From a virus: a stretch of 64,000 nucleotides of DNA. The DNA lies in IMG/VR virus record IMGVR_UViG_3300049914_000251, positions 1-64,000 of that record. One strand, given 5' to 3'. The position numbers were made by a program, and so were the translations under genes. Positions 5,615-59,304 of the stretch are shown here, piece after piece; the stretch's first letter is position 1, and each line of letters starts with the position of its first letter. The notes beneath the pieces are model-generated. The model saw nothing but the letters and a program-made list of their open reading frames with translations, searched no databases and was not told the DNA's origin.

Positions 5615-8564
5615 AACCATCTCCTTTAAAGATTCCAAAATAAGCCTTGCCTGAACAGGCCCCTGCTACTACTTCGACTTTACCCTCTCCCTTAAGCCAC
5701 TCATTCAGATTAACCTCCGTCAACATCCACGGATGCCCCGGACACGGTAGCAAATCTACCCACTCAAACAGCCTTACCAGCCTACCAGCCGCCTTTGCCT
5801 TCCTTATAACTTCTTTTGGATCCCTCACATGCTGAAGCACATTATAAATCCAAACCTCATCCCATTCGGATTCGTTCATAACCTCAGCTGCAACACATTC
5901 ATACTCTACCCCAGCAGCCTTATACCTTTCACAAACCCATAAAGGAAACTTAATTGGATCTATCGCCTTGGCCTTCTTGTAATTAGCGCACTTCAGAAGT
6001 ATGGAAACAGGACCGGAACCTACATCAAGAACACTCTTACCATGCACGTCGTACCTGTACGGGGTCTTTTCGTTAGGAACCTTATCCAGCCCCATCTTGC
6101 CAGCATATACCAGCTGCTTCAGCTCCTCATTAAGACTGTTAATACACATCTCCTCCCACCACTTACTTTCCCACGCCTGAGCATCTTTCCACGCCCTGAA
6201 GGATCCATCCTTTGAACGTACCGACTCCCCAGCCTCGTTAAATGGATCATACTCATCTTTGGTCAGCACGCCTCTTACAGCCTTAGCTATACTAGATTGG
6301 GACGAGTCCACAAACTGCGGAGTTACCCTAGCAAAATAATTCTCCTTATGACCAAACCTGCCAGATGCCGCATACAAATGTACCACCCTCAGCTTCAACG
6401 AATTTGCTACATCCTCAGTCTCAAACAAATCGTTATAAGACTCCTTCTGAGTTCCACTACCACCTATAGGAACAGGAAGAGCCTCAACCTTATCTGGATA
6501 TCCTTCCACTAAACTGGTAGCAACTCCCGGTCCAGTCGCTCCCCACGGCATGTCCGAATTTTTTAACTCATTACTTGCATTTAAATATGCTGCATTGGCT
6601 ACGTAAGAATTCTGAACCGCGCCCACAAAGGCAGAATTCCACGGATTAGTATTTGGAAGATACTGCCCGCATATTAAAGCTTCCTTGTCACCCAAGTATC
6701 CGGTTATGTCCGCAAACGACAAAGTATCGCAATCAAAACAGAAACCTCCGTACCCCAGAAGGAGATTCCATGTATAATAATCTTTAGTATGACTCCTGAT
6801 GTAATGTGCATCTTTACCAACAAAGGCCGGTACGTCCAACCTCTTCAATTCACCCTTCTCCACATTCAACAAATCATAGTACCTACTATCCTTAAACGTC
6901 ACGCGTTCCATTTGCCATACCTTCACCTTATCGACCTTCTGTGTTTTTTGAGCCGTCCTCACAGCTAAATAATACTGATATGGAAACTCATCCCCTGTCA
7001 CGATAAAGTGCAAAATCTTAGGTTCACTGTCATGCACAAGAACATAATTGCACTTATTAACCCAACCAGTCTCAACTGTTTTATAGCCCGCTGATAGAAG
7101 ACGTGTCTTAGTAGGACCTGTGAAATCCTCCAAGAAAATTATAGGTACTCTTCCAACGAAGCTGCCAAGCCCTTCTACAACTTCAGCCTCAGCGCCCTCG
7201 ACATCTATCTTGAGCATATCAGGCTTTATACCGTTGCTAGATAAATACGCATCCAGCCTCATTGTCTTAATTGTCTCTGAAGAGCCGTCTGGATCTATCT
7301 TACCCTCATGCTCATGATGCCATGACACCATCCTATCGGGAAACATACTAGCCAAGCCCCGGTATTTACTGCCATAACCATACAGTACAGAAGCTCCATC
7401 TTTATCAGACGCTGCTGCGTTAATAGCCACTACATTGGTCAACTTATTCAGTTCTATGTTTTTCATCATGACAGGAAAGTTAATAGCGGATGGTTCAAAA
7501 GCATATACCTTACCAGTAGAACCGACTAACTTGGACGCTAGAACCGTAAAATACCCCACATGCGCGCCCACATCCACAAACACCTGACCCGTCTTCAAAT
7601 TCTTCTTCAAATACTCTGTAGTTCCCGGCTCATATACCTGATGACTCCGGATCTCAGGAGTTATCCAATGACCAGCTCTGAAAAAATACATCTTAGACCC
7701 ACCGGTCACATCGAGCAGCTCCAACTCAGACATCCTTCTCGCATCTGCTCTCGCATCTGCCGCATCCAAATCAATTACGCCAGTATGCAATCCACATACC
7801 TTACGTGCTAAACGAGCATACAGAGAATTTGATTTTGCTACCCATTCAGGAGTAATAGCCCTAAACTTATCCTTCCATGCAAAAGAGAACATATGAAGAA
7901 TATAGCAATCACGCGGAAGCTCAAAAGGAGACTCTTCATAAATACTGGCTGCTTCATAGCCAGTCAGTCCCCCAAGAAATCCGAAATTGACTCCCCTTAC
8001 CGTACCCGGCCACTCATGAGCAACCGTAGTAACTAGCACAGGGCCTGCTGCCGCAAAACGTATCTCCCACGGCTGCTTAAAAATATGCTCTGTAGTAGTC
8101 AGCAACTCTTTAATTGGAGGAGTTCCTTTCTTCCCCAAGAACATGCTGCTGCCGTGATCAAATTCTATCGTGCCCGGAGGAGCATCCATTGGAGTAACTA
8201 AATCATAATCTCCCAGAAGACCGGTCGCATCTTTCAACGAAAGAGTGTCGAGGTCACAAACAAAACCACCTTCCTCATAAAGAATCTTATAGGCGAAATA
8301 ATCCTTAAGATTAGAGGCCTTTGACCAGGCCGTATCCTTCTCAGTACCCGGCTTTGCAACCGTCCTATCCATCGACAAGAACCTGGGAACCTCAAGCATC
8401 TTGACCCGAACTAACTGCTTTACCAGATCAAAATGCAAACCGTCTGGTTTCTCAGAACACCAAAGATCAATTCCCTGCACCTTCTGAGTATTAGCTGCAC
8501 TTAAAACAGCAAGAGCATATGCGTAATTAAAACCGCCTCCCAGATAAATAAAGTGCATTCTCAT
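5601..8564 (-). CDS. Four-domain glycosyltransferase/FkbM methyltransferase/glycosyltransferase/methyltransferase fusion
   Basis: 987 residues with a GAGGAGG site. Domain 1 (about 1-270) is a DXD sugar transferase of the GT32-like type, with YEEGGFVCDLDTLSL and DLD at 104-106. Domain 2 (about 320-510) is an FkbM-type SAM methyltransferase, with VDVGAHVGY at 330-338 and MLKIDVEGAEAE at 450-461. Domain 3 (about 515-760) repeats the sugar-transferase fold with GYGGFCFDCDTLSF and DCD at 611-613. Domain 4 (about 800-987) is a class I methyltransferase with VLDVGSGP at 845-852 and an NVLQHV post-I motif. The GT-MT order occurs twice, which suggests assembly from modules. The likely job is sequential sugar addition and O-methylation of a glycan; the substrate is unknown. 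Confidence 0.88.
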   Translation of the reverse strand: MRMHFIYLGGGFNYAYALAVLSAANTQKVQGIDLWCSEKPDGLHFDLVKQLVRVKMLEVPRFLSMDRTVAKPGTEKDTAWSKASNLKDYFAYKILYEEGGFVCDLDTLSLKDATGLLGDYDLVTPMDAPPGTIEFDHGSSMFLGKKGTPPIKELLTTTEHIFKQPWEIRFAAAGPVLVTTVAHEWPGTVRGVNFGFLGGLTGYEAASIYEESPFELPRDCYILHMFSFAWKDKFRAITPEWVAKSNSLYARLARKVCGLHTGVIDLDAADARADARRMSELELLDVTGGSKMYFFRAGHWITPEIRSHQVYEPGTTEYLKKNLKTGQVFVDVGAHVGYFTVLASKLVGSTGKVYAFEPSAINFPVMMKNIELNKLTNVVAINAAASDKDGASVLYGYGSKYRGLASMFPDRMVSWHHEHEGKIDPDGSSETIKTMRLDAYLSSNGIKPDMLKIDVEGAEAEVVEGLGSFVGRVPIIFLEDFTGPTKTRLLSAGYKTVETGWVNKCNYVLVHDSEPKILHFIVTGDEFPYQYYLAVRTAQKTQKVDKVKVWQMERVTFKDSRYYDLLNVEKGELKRLDVPAFVGKDAHYIRSHTKDYYTWNLLLGYGGFCFDCDTLSFADITGYLGDKEALICGQYLPNTNPWNSAFVGAVQNSYVANAAYLNASNELKNSDMPWGATGPGVATSLVEGYPDKVEALPVPIGGSGTQKESYNDLFETEDVANSLKLRVVHLYAASGRFGHKENYFARVTPQFVDSSQSSIAKAVRGVLTKDEYDPFNEAGESVRSKDGSFRAWKDAQAWESKWWEEMCINSLNEELKQLVYAGKMGLDKVPNEKTPYRYDVHGKSVLDVGSGPVSILLKCANYKKAKAIDPIKFPLWVCERYKAAGVEYECVAAEVMNESEWDEVWIYNVLQHVRDPKEVIRKAKAAGRLVRLFEWVDLLPCPGHPWMLTEVNLNEWLKGEGKVEVVAGACSGKAYFGIFKGDGYGKV

Positions 8565-26597: not shown

Positions 26598-27227
26598 TTA
26601 TATATAAGGGATACCCGTACATTCCTGCATCCACCGCTCGGCCCTGTTCTGTAACTTCATCTTAAATGACTGCAACCGCTCCCCTGCTTTAATATCGGTA
26701 GCCCTTACAATATCGTCGGGATCCCCTGCAGCTAATCCTATGGTTAATACGTTGAACTGCAGCCTCAGTTCCGGATCTAACAGAAGTTCCTGAGTCTTAG
26801 CAGAACCTTCCCGACCGCCGTCATCACCATCGAACAGCAAAAGCAACTTATCAGTCCACCGCCTCAACAGCAGGCCCTGCCACCGCGTAAGATTATTAGA
26901 CATCGCTCCGATCGTATTAGTAAACCCGACATAATGCATCGCTATCACATCCAACGGTCCCTCAACCACGATAGCATATCCCCGCTGAAGAATAGGCACT
27001 AATGCCCTATCAAGACCGAACACATTAAATGCGGTAGGAGCATCACTAGGATAATCCCACCTCATACCACCATCCGAGAAAAGTTTCTTGATCGTAAAAA
27101 TATACTTACCGGTAAAATCCAACACAGGTATCTGTATCGAATCTTCAGAGGTAAGTATATGCCAGTCTGAGATTTCCTCTTCTGTAATATGTCTTTTATC
27201 GAGAAGATAAACTAATCCTTTATCCAT
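26598..27227 (-). CDS. TOPRIM domain of a split DnaG-type primase
   Basis: 209 residues. The TOPRIM acidic motifs are clear: VVEGPLDVIAM (about 87-97) and LLLLFDGDDGGREGS (about 136-150). An N-terminal segment (RHITEEEISDWHIL, IPVLDFTGKYIF) matches the primase core before TOPRIM. There is no zinc-binding domain here. A separate CHC2 zinc protein is at 55952-56512, so the primase seems to be made as two chains. It should prime lagging strands with the DnaB helicase at 56824-59304. Confidence 0.85.
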   Translation of the reverse strand: MDKGLVYLLDKRHITEEEISDWHILTSEDSIQIPVLDFTGKYIFTIKKLFSDGGMRWDYPSDAPTAFNVFGLDRALVPILQRGYAIVVEGPLDVIAMHYVGFTNTIGAMSNNLTRWQGLLLRRWTDKLLLLFDGDDGGREGSAKTQELLLDPELRLQFNVLTIGLAAGDPDDIVRATDIKAGERLQSFKMKLQNRAERWMQECTGIPYI

Positions 27228-41181: not shown

Positions 41182-41210
41182 AGGTTACCATAAAACTTGT
41201 ATCCAGTCAA
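41182..41210 (-). promoter_or_regulatory. Weak phage-type promoter candidate
   Basis: TTGACT (41205-41210), 17-nt spacer, TAACCT (41182-41187). The -10 is poor, but the spacer (GATACAAGTTTTATGG) closely follows that of the promoter at 51435-51463. It lies at the end of the CCA-adding gene, upstream of the frameshifted zinc-ribbon gene. Confidence 0.35.
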
Positions 41211-42559
41211 TCATGTAAAAAATCAAACTCCTCCCTAAGAATTCTCTCTGCAGTTTCCTTATCTTCCGGATCCAGCTTACCGTCCAGCACCAGGCCTAAA
41301 AGATAATCCTTCAACTCACCTATCCGCTTACCCGGCACCAGACCAAATCGTTCCATTATCTCATCCCCGGTCAGTGGAGATACTATCATTTCGGGATGCT
41401 CTGTTAAACACCCCTCCACCACCTTCTCCAATCTGGATACAAACTCCTGTCTTGGAGATGCACTAGAGTACAAATCGCAGCGTACCAGTGACAGCAACAT
41501 CCTGACGTAATCCGGACCTATCTTCCGAATCATCCTGCGAATTACGGCCCTCTTCAGGCTCTTTTCCTTCTCTAACAGAATAGGATACATGTGAAACTTT
41601 ATCAGCGTATAGACAGCTTCTATAGTATCTGTATCAAACCTAAGAGCCTGGAGCCGGTCCTTAGCCATCTCAGCCCCAACATCCTGATGCCCGTAAAAAT
41701 GAACGTCATTATCATCTTCCGTTCGAGTAACGGGCTTCGCTATATCATGAAGAAGACACGCTAACCTGAACTTAAGATTACTCTCCCCGAAATCAATCGC
41801 TACAGACCTCTCCAGCACATCCATAGTGTGTTGAAAAGCGTCCTTAATATGATGCCTCCCCTGATTTATGAGAAGCAATTGCTCTATTTCTGGGATAATA
41901 TACTGCATCAAACCAAATGCACAGAGATTCCGTACCCCGAAAGACGGATTGGGAGACTCCAGAATCTTTACCAGCTCATCATGTATTCTCTCCGATGAAA
42001 TGATCTCCAGCCTTTCCGGATGCTCCATCTTTATATCTTGAAAACCGAACCCCAGCTGAGAAGCAAACCTTATAGCTCGCATCATCCTAAGTGGATCCTC
42101 TTCGAACCTCTGTGTTCCGCCTACTAACCTGATGAGCCTTTCCTGAATATCCTGAATCCCACCGAAATAATCATAAATAGCTCCATTAATAGGCCTTCTA
42201 GCTATGGAGTTAATGGTAAAATCGCGCCTCCTCAAATCCTCCATAAGACTGTAACCGAACTCCACCTTGGGCTTTCTGGAGTCCTGTGGGTATATCTCAG
42301 CCCTGAAAGTGGTTATCTCCAACTTCAACCCTTCATGCATCAGACCTATGGTGCCGAACTCTTCCCCCACCGTATAGATATCCCCAAGATCATGAAGCAA
42401 CAGCTTTATCACTCCCGGGGTAGCGTCAGTACAGAAATCATAATCGCTAGGCTCCCGTCCCATAATGGAATCGCGCACAGAACCGCCTACCTCCAGGAAC
42501 TGATATCCGGAGCCTTCAAACCTCTCTGCTATTGTCCTGAACAGCTCTGTCTTAATCAT
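41207..42559 (-). CDS. cca: tRNA nucleotidyltransferase (CCA-adding enzyme)
   Basis: 450 residues with AAGGT. Class II features: GGSVRD (24-29), DYDF (39-42), EIxTFR, RRRDFTINSIA and EEDPLRMMRAIRFA, followed by an HD domain (CLLHDIAKP, YGHQDVGAE). It adds or repairs 3' CCA ends. That fits the tRNA arrays, where many genes lack encoded CCA. The HD part may supply phosphatase activity, as in E. coli. Confidence 0.93.
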   Translation of the reverse strand: MIKTELFRTIAERFEGSGYQFLEVGGSVRDSIMGREPSDYDFCTDATPGVIKLLLHDLGDIYTVGEEFGTIGLMHEGLKLEITTFRAEIYPQDSRKPKVEFGYSLMEDLRRRDFTINSIARRPINGAIYDYFGGIQDIQERLIRLVGGTQRFEEDPLRMMRAIRFASQLGFGFQDIKMEHPERLEIISSERIHDELVKILESPNPSFGVRNLCAFGLMQYIIPEIEQLLLINQGRHHIKDAFQHTMDVLERSVAIDFGESNLKFRLACLLHDIAKPVTRTEDDNDVHFYGHQDVGAEMAKDRLQALRFDTDTIEAVYTLIKFHMYPILLEKEKSLKRAVIRRMIRKIGPDYVRMLLSLVRCDLYSSASPRQEFVSRLEKVVEGCLTEHPEMIVSPLTGDEIMERFGLVPGKRIGELKDYLLGLVLDGKLDPEDKETAERILREEFDFLHD

Positions 42560-42574
42560 CTTACCTTAAAAACC

Positions 42575-43513
42575 CTATATCTCTTTCTTAAACGACGGAT
42601 TCACTAAATACCCATCGTTAGAATACTCCAAATACTGAACCTCGACACTGATCCCCGAATCTACCCACACCGTGCCCTTAGGAACATTTACCTTACCTTT
42701 AAAAGGACACCCCATCGTTGGCATAGCCTTGAGCCTAATCGTCAAATCTCTAAGCTCTCCATCATCCGGCCCAGAGCCAGCTCTTCCCACATGCACAAGT
42801 TTGCCATCCCGCAGCTCACCCAACACCAAAGCCCCGAAATATTCCTCTCTTGCATTCTTGCCCGGGGTATAACCTATGACCTTAAAAATGCCTTTCTGCC
42901 ATGTCTTGATCTTCAACCAAGCCTTCGGATGCCTATATCCTGGGTAGTAAAAGGAATTTAGCTCCTTTGCCACGATCCCCTCAACACCCAAGGACTTCAC
43001 CCAGCCGAACAACTCCACTCCCTTACCTATCACAAAAGGAGCCTGAAGCGCTAAGCCGCTCGAAATTAAGCACTCACTTATCAGTTGCTTCCTGCAACCT
43101 AATGGTGCCTTCTGCCCCCGGCTAGTAAAATCCACCTCGTTAGCTTCCAAAATATCCCATACCACAAACGTTGCGGGAAACTGCCTTGCAAGTCTTGCCA
43201 CTATCAAAGGATCGGTGTTCTTAATCCTACGTTGAATCCTGTTAAAATTAGGAAGACCATTCTCATCAAAACAGACCATCTCGCCATCCAGCACCACTTT
43301 ATTCCACTTAATTTGCCTCCAAATTCCTTGTAGCTCCGGAAAGCTAGCCGTCATGTTTGTACCCTTCCTACCTATAAAGGACACCTTAGCGCCTTCCTTA
43401 TAACACAAAGCTCGACAGCCGTTATACTTGATCTCATACAGATGTTGATCATCGTCAAACGGCTGCCGAACTAGGGTACACAACATTGGTTGAAACTTCT
43501 CATTCATCTTCAT
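42575..43513 (-). CDS. ATP-dependent DNA ligase, LigD-like (NHEJ partner of Ku)
   Basis: 312 residues. Motif I EIKYNGCRA (Lys29; KYNG where KxDG is usual), motif III LDGEMVCF, IIIa VVWDIL, IV EGIVAKE and V WLKIKT are followed by an OB-fold (YFGALVLGEL, HVGRAGSG). This is the minimal LigD ligase-domain layout, without polymerase or phosphoesterase domains. It probably seals Ku-bound ends with the product of 44329-45114. A structured element sits 13 nt before its start codon. Confidence 0.9.
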   Translation of the reverse strand: MKMNEKFQPMLCTLVRQPFDDDQHLYEIKYNGCRALCYKEGAKVSFIGRKGTNMTASFPELQGIWRQIKWNKVVLDGEMVCFDENGLPNFNRIQRRIKNTDPLIVARLARQFPATFVVWDILEANEVDFTSRGQKAPLGCRKQLISECLISSGLALQAPFVIGKGVELFGWVKSLGVEGIVAKELNSFYYPGYRHPKAWLKIKTWQKGIFKVIGYTPGKNAREEYFGALVLGELRDGKLVHVGRAGSGPDDGELRDLTIRLKAMPTMGCPFKGKVNVPKGTVWVDSGISVEVQYLEYSNDGYLVNPSFKKEI

Positions 43514-43526
43514 TTCTCTTTCAAGT

Positions 43527-43608
43527 GGGGCCGGTTCTACCTAGATCTACCGCTGTTCCCAGTCGGTTTACTTCCTCATTTCGGAGGTTCTCGATTAGAC
43601 CCGGCCCC
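43527..43608 (-). ncRNA. Structured three-way-junction element in ligase leader
   Basis: An outer 8-bp perfect stem (43527-43534 with 43601-43608, GGGGCCGG/CCGGCCCC) extends by TCTA/TAGA after one mismatch. Inside are a 7-bp hairpin (43549-43555/43560-43567) with one bulge and, on the transcribed strand, a GGAA (GNRA) tetraloop, and a CCTC/GAGG hairpin (43574-43577/43584-43587). It is not a tRNA: no T arm or 7-nt anticodon loop. It is probably a 5' untranslated regulatory or processing element of the ligase mRNA. Confidence 0.6.
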
Positions 43609-43621
43609 TCTTCTACGTAAA

Positions 43622-44328: not shown

Positions 44329-45114
44329 TTAAGCTGCCACCGGCTCCGCAGCCTTCACTGATGCTACCAAAGCGTCCAGCAAACCAACTTCCTTAATTGC
44401 CGCGGCCTGTGGTTGAATCTTGACCACCCCACCCGCTAACTTAGCTTCGATTCTCTCTTTCAAAGCCTCGGTGTACTCATCGTGGAAATTTTTCAACTCC
44501 GCCTTCTTCGTTAGCTTAGAGATTAACTGCTTGGCTATCTTCAGCTCATCTTCCTTAGTATCCGCCAGGCCCTCGCTGTACTCTGTTGCATCCCGCAACT
44601 CTGTGGAGTACTTCAGGGGCTGTACAAGCAAGATGTCATTCAACGGCCGAATCAGTACCAGGTGCTGCTTATCCCGTAAGGTATACTTTGCTATGGCTGC
44701 CTTGCCCTCTGAAACGATGCCCGTGAACAGCAGTGCAAACGCCTTCGCGCCACCTTTATCCGGAGTAGCGTAGTAGAAATCGTTCTTAATATACCGCGGG
44801 TCTACTTCCTTTGGGTCTACGAACTCCACTATCTGAATGGTATCTTTATCACCTATTGGCAGATTTTCAAAATCTGCATCGGTCATCTGCAACCACTCAT
44901 CCTTATCCAGTGGATACCCCTTGATAATATCTTCCTGTACCAGATCAATCTTACCGCATTTGGAACAGCGTTTCGGCAGCTCTATCTTACCACCGCATTC
45001 CTTATGCAGCTGATTGAACTTCACCGTGGGATCCTCGTTCCCCTTATATAACTTCACCGGTATCGAAACGAGGCCGAACCCTAAGGTTCCTGCCCAAGTT
45101 GCTCTCTTACCCAT
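44329..45114 (-). CDS. ku: Ku protein (non-homologous end joining)
   Basis: 261 residues, the bacterial Ku length. The start RATWAGTLGFGLVSIPVKLY in outline, the CGGKIE and RCSKCGK Cys set, DIIKGYPLDKDEWLQM, and LVLIRPLNDILLVQPL are all Ku hallmarks. The protein should form a ring on DNA ends and recruit the LigD-like ligase. Rare phage Ku proteins are known, for example in mycobacteriophages Corndog and Omega. A dedicated promoter lies at 45151-45179. Confidence 0.95.
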   Translation of the reverse strand: MGKRATWAGTLGFGLVSIPVKLYKGNEDPTVKFNQLHKECGGKIELPKRCSKCGKIDLVQEDIIKGYPLDKDEWLQMTDADFENLPIGDKDTIQIVEFVDPKEVDPRYIKNDFYYATPDKGGAKAFALLFTGIVSEGKAAIAKYTLRDKQHLVLIRPLNDILLVQPLKYSTELRDATEYSEGLADTKEDELKIAKQLISKLTKKAELKNFHDEYTEALKERIEAKLAGGVVKIQPQAAAIKEVGLLDALVASVKAAEPVAA

Positions 45115-45150: not shown

Positions 45151-45179
45151 ATACTACCACTAACCTTATAGAATGTCAA
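45151..45179 (-). promoter_or_regulatory. Promoter of the Ku-ligase operon
   Basis: TTGACA at 45174-45179, 17-nt spacer with TATAAGG, TAGTAT at 45151-45156 preceded by TGG. Start of transcription is expected near 45144, about 30 nt upstream of the Ku ATG. Confidence 0.75.
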
Positions 45180-45251: not shown

Positions 45252-45319
45252 GACGTTGGGGGAACTTCTGGGAAAATGCTGCCTTATTCACTCGATATTT
45301 AGGCAATTCCCCCAACGTC
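45252..45319 (-). repeat. Perfect 13-bp inverted repeat between DUF932 and Ku
   Basis: GACGTTGGGGGAA (45252-45264) and TTCCCCCAACGTC (45307-45319) are exact inverted copies 42 nt apart, with a TGCCT/AGGCA stem nested inside. It begins 10 nt past the DUF932 stop. There is no following U tract, so it is not a standard terminator. The 215-nt gap has no coding frame; besides this it holds the Ku promoter. Confidence 0.8.
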
Positions 45320-56512: not shown

Positions 56513-56824
56513 TTACTTCTTCCTTTTCTTTGCGTCTGCCAGCTGCTCATATAAACACTTGCAACTCAACATTCCCACCAGATGCATTTTAGCTTTCTTA
56601 GTTTTTGCTTCCTTAATAAGTTTAATTGTTCCAAGCATTTTAAGATATTCAGATATGTAAAAAGCTGCACTGACGTGAACATTGGCCCAATGAGAGTTCC
56701 AATCAAACTCATCATCAACAGCACAGTACATGATATGAATACCAGCAGCGCGTTCACTTTGTTGTACTGTTTCGTTAGGAGATAAAAGACTACCAGGCTT
56801 TTCCCCATATTCTCCCTGTTCCAT
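56513..56824 (-). CDS. Hypothetical protein between primase half and helicase
   Basis: 103 residues; ATG at 56824 overlaps the DnaB stop (TGATG) with GGAGGA upstream. Helical second half (AAFYISEYLKMLGTIKLIKEAK) and a Lys-rich end. Location between DnaB and CHC2 suggests a primosome accessory role; no family seen. Confidence 0.62.
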   Translation of the reverse strand: MEQGEYGEKPGSLLSPNETVQQSERAAGIHIMYCAVDDEFDWNSHWANVHVSAAFYISEYLKMLGTIKLIKEAKTKKAKMHLVGMLSCKCLYEQLADAKKRKK

Positions 56825-59304
56825 CACTCCTCCACATTTAACAGATCATCAGCCTGACGCTTGGAGCCAATATAGCAACACCCGAAATCCTCCTCCAATT
56901 CGAAAGGCTCCAGAATCTTCTCACCGTCCCGGTTCTTTAATATCTGAGCACGCAGCTTACCCGGCTCATCGGCCATTTGTAGCAGGGTTAATATGACATC
57001 TGCACTTCTCTCAGACTCAGAAGTATTTGCCAACACAGCCAAAGTATATCTCCCAAGTTTGGCTGCCTCAACCCACTGGGCCTGTTTTGCCTGCCACGGA
57101 GAAAGCACAGGAATTCCGGAACCGTTAAAAGATACTGCTATCTGCTTCATCTCGATAATAACTTCGTCGATTTCCTCTCGCTTCTCGACTCTTTTTCGAT
57201 CAGAATGCACCAGATTCAGATAATCCAGAGCAAACAAGTCTATATTGAACATTGTCTGATAAGCTATTAACCGGTCATAAATATATCTAGGAGTACATCG
57301 ATAAGGCATTTGAAATATTTGAATCCGTCCATACCCGCCAGCCTTCAAATCATCGAGAACCTCATCATACAGCGCTTCGTCCGGAAGAGAAAGACCACCG
57401 CCCTTAATGTCCTTATACCTTAACACACGGCCTTCAAACTTCGGACTCTTACGACAATGCAAACAGGCCAAACGCCTTCTCACCTGCGCTCTTGTAGACT
57501 CTGCAGTGCCCAGCACCACATTCTTCCCCTGCACAAAAGCAGCATTATAAATAACATTCTCCACAAGAGTAGTTTTTCCTTGCGATGTGTTGTGTACCTT
57601 AAAAGGAGTTAGGTAATAACCAGACGTTGTTTTTAGGCCTATGACAGATCGCGGCTCTTCCCTGATTACACTTTTAACACGCGTCAAAACATATCCAGGA
57701 GTGCTTACCTTGAAATTATGATACCCCCTACCCGGAGGCCTTTCTTTTTCGCCCGCTGTATTCTGTACTGTAAATCTGTAATGTTTCCCAGATGAGTTAG
57801 GAAATGCCGTAATCCCATCTTTAATTTCCTGTAAACATCCAAACTTGCCTCTTTTGGCAACAAGAACTACTATGCCCTCCATGACCTCACGATTATAAGA
57901 TGTCCAGCTGCGCCGTTTACCCTGTATGTTTCTCATACCATCAAGATAATTGTCCAAAAATGCGTTTGTTAAATTCAAAGGAAGTTTGAATAACCATCCC
58001 GGTAGTCTCTTAGTCAAAGCGCCTCTACCAAATTCACGAACTATCCACTCAACAAAAGGCCGCCCCGTAAAAGTTATTCTTCTATACACTGTCCTGTGAT
58101 TATATTCCTTTAACGCAAACGAAATACCCATTTTCCGCAAAATGGCCTCTGCCTTATCTGCATCCTCATATAGTCTCTTACCATATGAGATACTTATAGA
58201 ATATAACCTATCCTCTTGTCCGCTTTTATTTGCCGATGGATTACCGTTTGAAACGTAATGTGCTAAAAGCAACATCAGATCCTCGTTGAACTCTACGCTA
58301 ACCCCACGTTTCAAATGCTCATGCTTAGACCCCAGCCTGAAACATAACTTTTCTGGGATCACCGCATCCTGTAACACCGGGATAGCTAAATAATCCCCAG
58401 CACTAACATCAGCAGCTTTTACTAATGTCAATGTACGAGGACCAGTCCTTCTCCTTACACAAATAGGATGTTGTAACGTAAACAACTTCGCTGGTAAAGA
58501 ATCCGTACGAATAGACACCAACGACTCAGGATCAAATTTCCACTTGCCAGCAACCCTACCGCACAACGGTACGCCATCCCCGATTTCAACATCTTCTATC
58601 TTTTTAAACCCCCCGTCCGTAAAAACAAATTCCCCTTCAGGCTGACAATAGGCACCGACCAACCACAAATCCCCTGCCGTCATACCAAAAGTCACTTCGT
58701 CAATTTCCCGAATCCCTGTCTTAATATAAACAGCCGCCTTATTAGCTTTAATGGACTTATACTCATCCCGCATCAATCCTATCTCATCCCGCATGTTTCC
58801 TTCAGGGAACACCCCGGACAACCTATCCAAATCAGTGCTCCTGGTCGCTATCATTTTTACAGCCGCATCATAGCCCTTAATTGCAGCTCCACCCACCATT
58901 TTACCCTCTGTAAGCACCTGCATCGCATCGGTCAACGTCTCAGCCAGCTTCTCAGACTTAATAATATCAACTAAACCATCCACAGCAAACTTAAACTTAG
59001 CTGTAGACACCTTAGCCTGCACAGCTACCAGCTTCTTATACAGCTCCATAACTTCGAATACCTGTGCCTCTGTCTTGCCCGCACCTTTAAGTGCAGATTC
59101 CAAATCTTCAGCGTCGATAATTTGCCCCGTCAGCTTATGATACCTTACCAGCGCCTGAAACAACGGCAAAAACCGCTCTTCAATCATCTCCTCGCGAAGC
59201 CTGCAGGACACGTGCCAGAACCTGTCCTTTATATCCTCACCAGAGCTTTGAATAAGAGCAGCAATTACGACTAACTGAAAACGCTCTTTGTCCTTTTCGT
59301 CCAT
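56824..59304 (-). CDS. dnaB: DnaB-type replicative helicase interrupted by an intein
   Basis: 826 residues, of which about 473 are helicase. The N-terminal domain (1-170) is followed by FGMTAGDLWLVGAY, where the P-loop is cut by the intein (220-572), and resumes as TSQGKTTLVENV, giving AYTSQGKT after splicing. Later motifs include LFALDYLNLVHSD (Walker B/H2), VPVLSPWQAKQ-like IPVLSPWQAK and LKNRDGEK (H4 region), all DnaB features. The ribosome site is GGGG; a GGTATAA motif lies upstream. It unwinds DNA ahead of the phage polymerase. Confidence 0.9.
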   Translation of the reverse strand: MDEKDKERFQLVVIAALIQSSGEDIKDRFWHVSCRLREEMIEERFLPLFQALVRYHKLTGQIIDAEDLESALKGAGKTEAQVFEVMELYKKLVAVQAKVSTAKFKFAVDGLVDIIKSEKLAETLTDAMQVLTEGKMVGGAAIKGYDAAVKMIATRSTDLDRLSGVFPEGNMRDEIGLMRDEYKSIKANKAAVYIKTGIREIDEVTFGMTAGDLWLVGAYCQPEGEFVFTDGGFKKIEDVEIGDGVPLCGRVAGKWKFDPESLVSIRTDSLPAKLFTLQHPICVRRRTGPRTLTLVKAADVSAGDYLAIPVLQDAVIPEKLCFRLGSKHEHLKRGVSVEFNEDLMLLLAHYVSNGNPSANKSGQEDRLYSISISYGKRLYEDADKAEAILRKMGISFALKEYNHRTVYRRITFTGRPFVEWIVREFGRGALTKRLPGWLFKLPLNLTNAFLDNYLDGMRNIQGKRRSWTSYNREVMEGIVVLVAKRGKFGCLQEIKDGITAFPNSSGKHYRFTVQNTAGEKERPPGRGYHNFKVSTPGYVLTRVKSVIREEPRSVIGLKTTSGYYLTPFKVHNTSQGKTTLVENVIYNAAFVQGKNVVLGTAESTRAQVRRRLACLHCRKSPKFEGRVLRYKDIKGGGLSLPDEALYDEVLDDLKAGGYGRIQIFQMPYRCTPRYIYDRLIAYQTMFNIDLFALDYLNLVHSDRKRVEKREEIDEVIIEMKQIAVSFNGSGIPVLSPWQAKQAQWVEAAKLGRYTLAVLANTSESERSADVILTLLQMADEPGKLRAQILKNRDGEKILEPFELEEDFGCCYIGSKRQADDLLNVEE
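57589..58647 (-). mobile_element. Intein with LAGLI-DADG-type endonuclease inside DnaB
   Basis: Residues 220-572 (353 aa). Splicing features: Cys1 (GAY/C), block A GEFVFTDGGFKKIEDVEIGD, block B LQHPICVRR (the usual block is T/QxxH), and C-terminal VIGLKTTSGYYL with PFKVHN before Thr+1. The middle has LLLAHYVSNGN and FLDNYLDGMRN, LAGLIDADG-like helices; the second has DGM where DGD is usual, so cutting may be reduced. The insertion site, inside the P-loop, is a conserved one used by inteins. Confidence 0.88.

Follow-up and report, generated by a model that had tools for sequence, protein, structure and literature searches.

Intercistronic hairpins processed by RNase III are found among the early genes of phage T7, and a processing site of this kind is an irregular duplex of roughly 15–22 bp lying between cistrons. 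Phages with adjoining Ku and ligase genes are uncommon and, to our knowledge, it is not known how those that carry both genes time the expression of NHEJ. In bacteria and in phage lambda, RNase III is an established regulator of mRNA that acts on duplexes in leaders and between cistrons (PMC3997798); the cases referenced there include sib of phage lambda and the rnc and pnp leaders of Escherichia coli.

We studied an 82-nt structured element in a Ku–ligase gene run of IMG/VR virus IMGVR_UViG_3300049914_000251, a record of 113,818 bases of which bases 1–64000 form the stretch analysed here (the window; Table 1). Nearly all genes around the element are carried by the minus strand and the order of transcription is Ku, a 97-aa ORF, a 134-aa ORF, the ligase and a CCA-adding/poly(A)-polymerase-like gene. 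The remaining joints in the Ku–ligase run measure 8 nt, 0 nt and 15 nt, so that the 108-nt gap in front of the ligase stands out; across the record there are 96 gaps, mostly short, that sum to 4.9 kb in 113.8 kb. The element leaves 13 nt of the gap unoccupied at either side. The Cys/His-rich protein that precedes it has a paralogue in the same record, with 46% identity over 78 aa to a segment of ORF 112691–113812 (BLASTP); PHROG contained no family for either ORF, and Pfam none for the 134-aa ORF.

Table 1 Coordinates of the element, its parts and the neighbouring genes
Feature	Position	Strand	Basis or partner
Whole structured element, 82 nt	43527..43608	minus	Fold energy compared with shuffles
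Outer helix, 5' arm GGGGCCGG	43601..43608	minus	Pairs with 43527–43534
Outer helix, 3' arm CCGGCCCC	43527..43534	minus	Partner of 43601..43608
Second outer-helix segment, 5' arm UCUA	43596..43599	minus	After G·A mismatch; pairs with 43536–43539
Second outer-helix segment, 3' arm UAGA	43536..43539	minus	Partner of UCUA
Hairpin A, CCUC-CGAAAU-GAGG, 4 bp, 6-nt loop	43574..43587	minus	MFE
Hairpin B, ACCG-A-CUG-GGAA-CAG-CGGU, 7 bp, one bulge, GNRA loop	43549..43567	minus	MFE
Intercistronic gap containing the element, 108 nt	43514..43621	minus	ORF ends
Downstream gene, ATP-dependent DNA ligase, 312 aa	42575..43513	minus	Pfam PF01068, PF04679; PHROG 114
Upstream gene, Cys/His-rich protein, 134 aa	43622..44026	minus	BLASTP paralogue, ORF 112691–113812
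Ku gene, same gene run	44329..45114	minus	Pfam PF02735
CCA-adding/poly(A)-polymerase-like gene	41207–42559		Downstream of ligase

The minimum free energy structure of the minus strand, read from 43608 to 43527, is ((((((((.((((.((.(((.((((......))))......((((.(((....)))))))...))).)))))).)))))))), with a folding energy of −36.4 kcal/mol. All eight pairs of the outer helix are Watson–Crick and they are paired across nearly the entire ensemble. Inward of the UCUA/UAGA segment the pairing continues through a bulged A, UC/GG, a G·A mismatch and AGA/UCU to the junction from which the two hairpins arise; for hairpin A, a competing register lies only 0.8 kcal/mol above the minimum. In longer context the foot of the outer helix gains three further pairs (AAG/CUU) past an A·A mismatch, which brings the element to a total of about 15–21 interrupted pairs with this extension included. 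Folding of the plus strand is almost as favourable (−34.1 kcal/mol, z = −3.9), as an inverted repeat would lead one to expect, and energy alone thus cannot choose the strand; gene direction does. The GNRA loop is confined to the minus strand since the complement of GGAA is UUCC. The original prediction had given the position and sequence of the element correctly, along with eight perfect outer pairs and four more (separated, as we found, by a 1×1 G·A mismatch), a second small hairpin, an intergenic gap filled to within 13 nt of the ligase start codon, and a GNRA loop on the transcribed strand only. It had also described an inner 7-bp hairpin with a GGAA tetraloop; the loop and the seven pairs are present, and the stem is interrupted by a bulged A.

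We compared the element with shuffled sequences as a whole and in parts. Random sequence folding to so low an energy had been named in advance as grounds for abandoning the structure, and none of 1,000 dinucleotide shuffles of the minus-strand element reached its energy (shuffle mean −23.0, z = −4.25), nor had any of 200 in a first, smaller run (z = −3.98). The composite outer helix, eight Watson–Crick pairs, a 1×1 mismatch and four Watson–Crick pairs, did not arise in any of 3,000 shuffles of the gap. The 66-nt interior folded alone gave a z of −1.25, with 109 of 1,000 shuffles as low. When the outer eight pairs were held fixed and the interior was shuffled, the interior was still branched in 67% of the sequences and combined branching with a GNRA loop in 6.4%, and 2.2% were at least as stable as −36.4 kcal/mol. 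These results single out the long closing helix as the remarkable part of the element; its three-way junction and GNRA loop are indistinguishable from chance. We take the branched interior, with its GNRA hairpin, as probable filling.

The space that separates the ligase from the 134-aa ORF is filled by a long GC-closed helix with interruptions, which leaves the ligase start region largely outside. The element is a real, stable and single-copy intergenic hairpin, and most likely an ordinary one. Our preferred reading, to which we give about an even chance, is that it forms a hairpin between cistrons of a polycistronic phage mRNA and has a role in mRNA processing, in stability or as a spacer. 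Ku, the two small ORFs, the ligase and the CCA-adding/poly(A)-polymerase-like gene would share one transcript, and transcription would run through the element. The folded RNA could then offer a double-stranded site for processing by a putative cleavage, block exonucleases and the read-through of ribosomes, or do both, and the ligase cistron would be uncoupled in stability and translation from the cistrons that precede it. In size the element compares with known RNase III sites (8 + 4 + 2 + 3 pairs, and three more past the A·A mismatch, with mismatches and a bulge). Like RNase III processing hairpins it is irregular, long and placed between cistrons, with the start codon outside the helix and no U tract; unlike them it is branched, the well-known cases being unbranched or differently branched, and its cleavage is only putative. 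It also resembles REP-type or stabilising intergenic hairpins in being an inverted repeat, closed by GC pairs, that lies between genes, yet REP elements are repeated within a genome and this element is single-copy. Other gaps of the record likewise hold strong hairpins that lack a U tract (45252–45319 before Ku, 82939–82973 after the capsid gene, and 104498–104531), and these, together with the RNase III precedent, make a processing, stability or spacer role the economical reading. If it holds, the timing of NHEJ expression would have a simple explanation in a hairpin that separates the cistrons by processing or insulation; as one stable hairpin in a single uncultured virus, the element has small general importance.

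The alternative that survives best is possible, if clearly less probable: the element may be a neutral quasi-palindrome, produced by template switching or inherited with an acquired fragment, and functionless in RNA. The near-equal folding of its two strands points this way, as does an excess of perfect inverted repeats whose arms measure 10 bp or more, of which the genome holds 13 compared with 3.4 in shuffles, many of them within genes. In a scan of the minus strand of the record, based on a thinned sampling of windows, the element ranked about seventh by z, and several of the windows above it sit within genes (27087–27168 and 43397–43478, for example). Folds as strong as this one within genes of the phage make stability alone weak evidence for function. 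Against neutrality stand the length of the composite helix and its close fit to the gap, as compact genomes usually lose useless DNA.

A neutral origin would also agree with the single copy and with the outcome of our search for relatives. A structure-aware model, for which the element was the only input sequence, found the element alone, both in the whole record with default filters and in the 64-kb window with filters off, and gave no hit better than chance in 87 Ku/ligase loci or in 84 loci selected by pattern. DNA similarity searches with the locus gave no relative among phages; those with the gap gave one chance match among phages (E = 1) and none among plasmids. An 86% match at 81089 spans 22 nt (E = 0.09) and was set aside as chance. 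The ligase, terminase and capsid proteins, the last represented by 334 residues of a gene that spans two loci, retrieved nothing related from viral contigs, and the terminase had no match in genome contigs. Alignment searches recovered 21 viral loci for Ku, none more than 35% identical, and 80 for the ligase, none more than 37% identical. By these comparisons, no near relative of the virus is present in the open collections searched. The most similar Ku–ligase arrangement we found (contig L130, IMGVR_UViG_3300020171_000031, 6001–8241; ligase 34% identical) shares the order Ku, small ORFs, ligase, which indicates that the NHEJ pair recurs in phages; there, in a distant virus, the genes overlap, with no gap and no hairpin at the corresponding place, which counts against our preferred reading. 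Patterns fared similarly: the junction with a GNRA hairpin matched 16 loci and the fold was present in none, the exact 17-mer of hairpin B occurred at eight viral loci that match at the hairpin level only, a longer 22-mer had no match in genome contigs, and the outer-helix pattern matched at least 120 loci, 60 of which gave nothing convincing with the structure model.

The position of the element, 13 nt 5' of the ligase ATG, its branched form with a GNRA loop and the presence of a further hairpin in the early ligase codons (43397–43478) would suit a cis-regulatory leader that controls ligase translation, either as a riboswitch or through autoregulation by bound ligase, Ku or the zinc-finger-like neighbour. 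We consider this doubtful. The bases directly 5' of the ATG are mostly unpaired and we saw no alternative pairing between the element and the bases before the start codon, so that the ribosome-binding site is left free and a simple switch over it is not indicated. An intrinsic terminator is a GC-rich stem followed by a U run; here ACUUGAAAGAG comes after the stem, and a terminator scan omitted the element. With ACUUGAAAG in that place and no U tract, the element is not an intrinsic terminator. A scan of the window with 4,227 Rfam models returned no match at gathering score except tRNAs elsewhere, and thus no known aptamer; at E ≤ 10 the only match was a chance one to GlsR13 (10.5 bits) that overlaps the element by 4 nt. 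The interior structure does not exceed chance, and no structure resembling the element was seen in the upstream regions of 78 other phage ligases, where the best-folding 82 nt within 150 nt upstream had a mean z of −1.1. A three-codon frame (AUG-AGG-AAG-UAA) in hairpin A and the junction was judged a chance occurrence. Of the structured leader in the original prediction, a structured intergenic RNA stands, by energy and by fit to the gap; its riboswitch, self-cleaving and protein-binding proposals found no support, the first two in view of the absence of any Rfam model at E ≤ 10, of a hammerhead core and of an expression platform, and the Rfam comparison that it called for produced no family for the element. 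More specifically, and in our view improbable, the element could be a lineage-specific regulatory RNA for the phage NHEJ operon (Ku and ligase), in which, for example, ligase, Ku or the zinc-finger-like neighbour binds the GNRA hairpin and junction.

The transcribed strand folds compactly into a closed structure whose core is branched, which might also suggest a self-cleaving ribozyme or a small RNA that is excised, and a closing helix with two hairpins at a junction is the layout of small three-way-junction riboswitches and hammerhead ribozymes. In the hammerhead a three-way junction is surrounded by a CUGANGA core and GAAA. The element differs from these classes in having no conserved core or Rfam match and an interior that does not exceed chance; neither the hammerhead CTGANGA core nor the short strings tried for pistol and hatchet were present in it, and no relative appeared in any collection searched, which leaves such an RNA very improbable. 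A degenerate tRNA or tRNA-like gene, suggested by the 82-nt length, the 8-bp closing stem and the 26 tRNA genes of the window (ARAGORN), some of them alone in gaps, can be dismissed almost entirely, as the element has no ARAGORN match, no Rfam tRNA match at E ≤ 10, no TTCRA T-loop and no similarity to the tRNAs of the phage. Across the 113.8-kb record ARAGORN found no tRNA gene for Leu or Met.

Several other features of the record were observed. The hairpin at 43397–43478 (minus strand) covers ligase codons ~12–39 by the KYNG nucleotidyl-lysine motif, contains 15 bp at −33.3 kcal/mol and, with a z of −5.75, surpasses the element. The 215-nt gap before Ku holds an inverted repeat at 45252–45319 (minus strand) with 13-bp arms GACGTTGGGGGAA and a 42-nt loop, the longest perfect inverted repeat of the record outside protein-repeat genes, which is followed by a promoter-like TTGACA-17-TAGTAT at 45179–45151 with TG preceding the second hexamer. 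Two large ORFs in the structural-gene part (78336–80291 and 99168–102863) consist of collagen-like GDTGIQ/GDTGADSTVA repeats. Within the window, an 826-aa ORF for a DnaB-type helicase (56824–59304) contains an apparent intein, which would follow WLVGAYC, start with C and end with VHNTSQGKTT.
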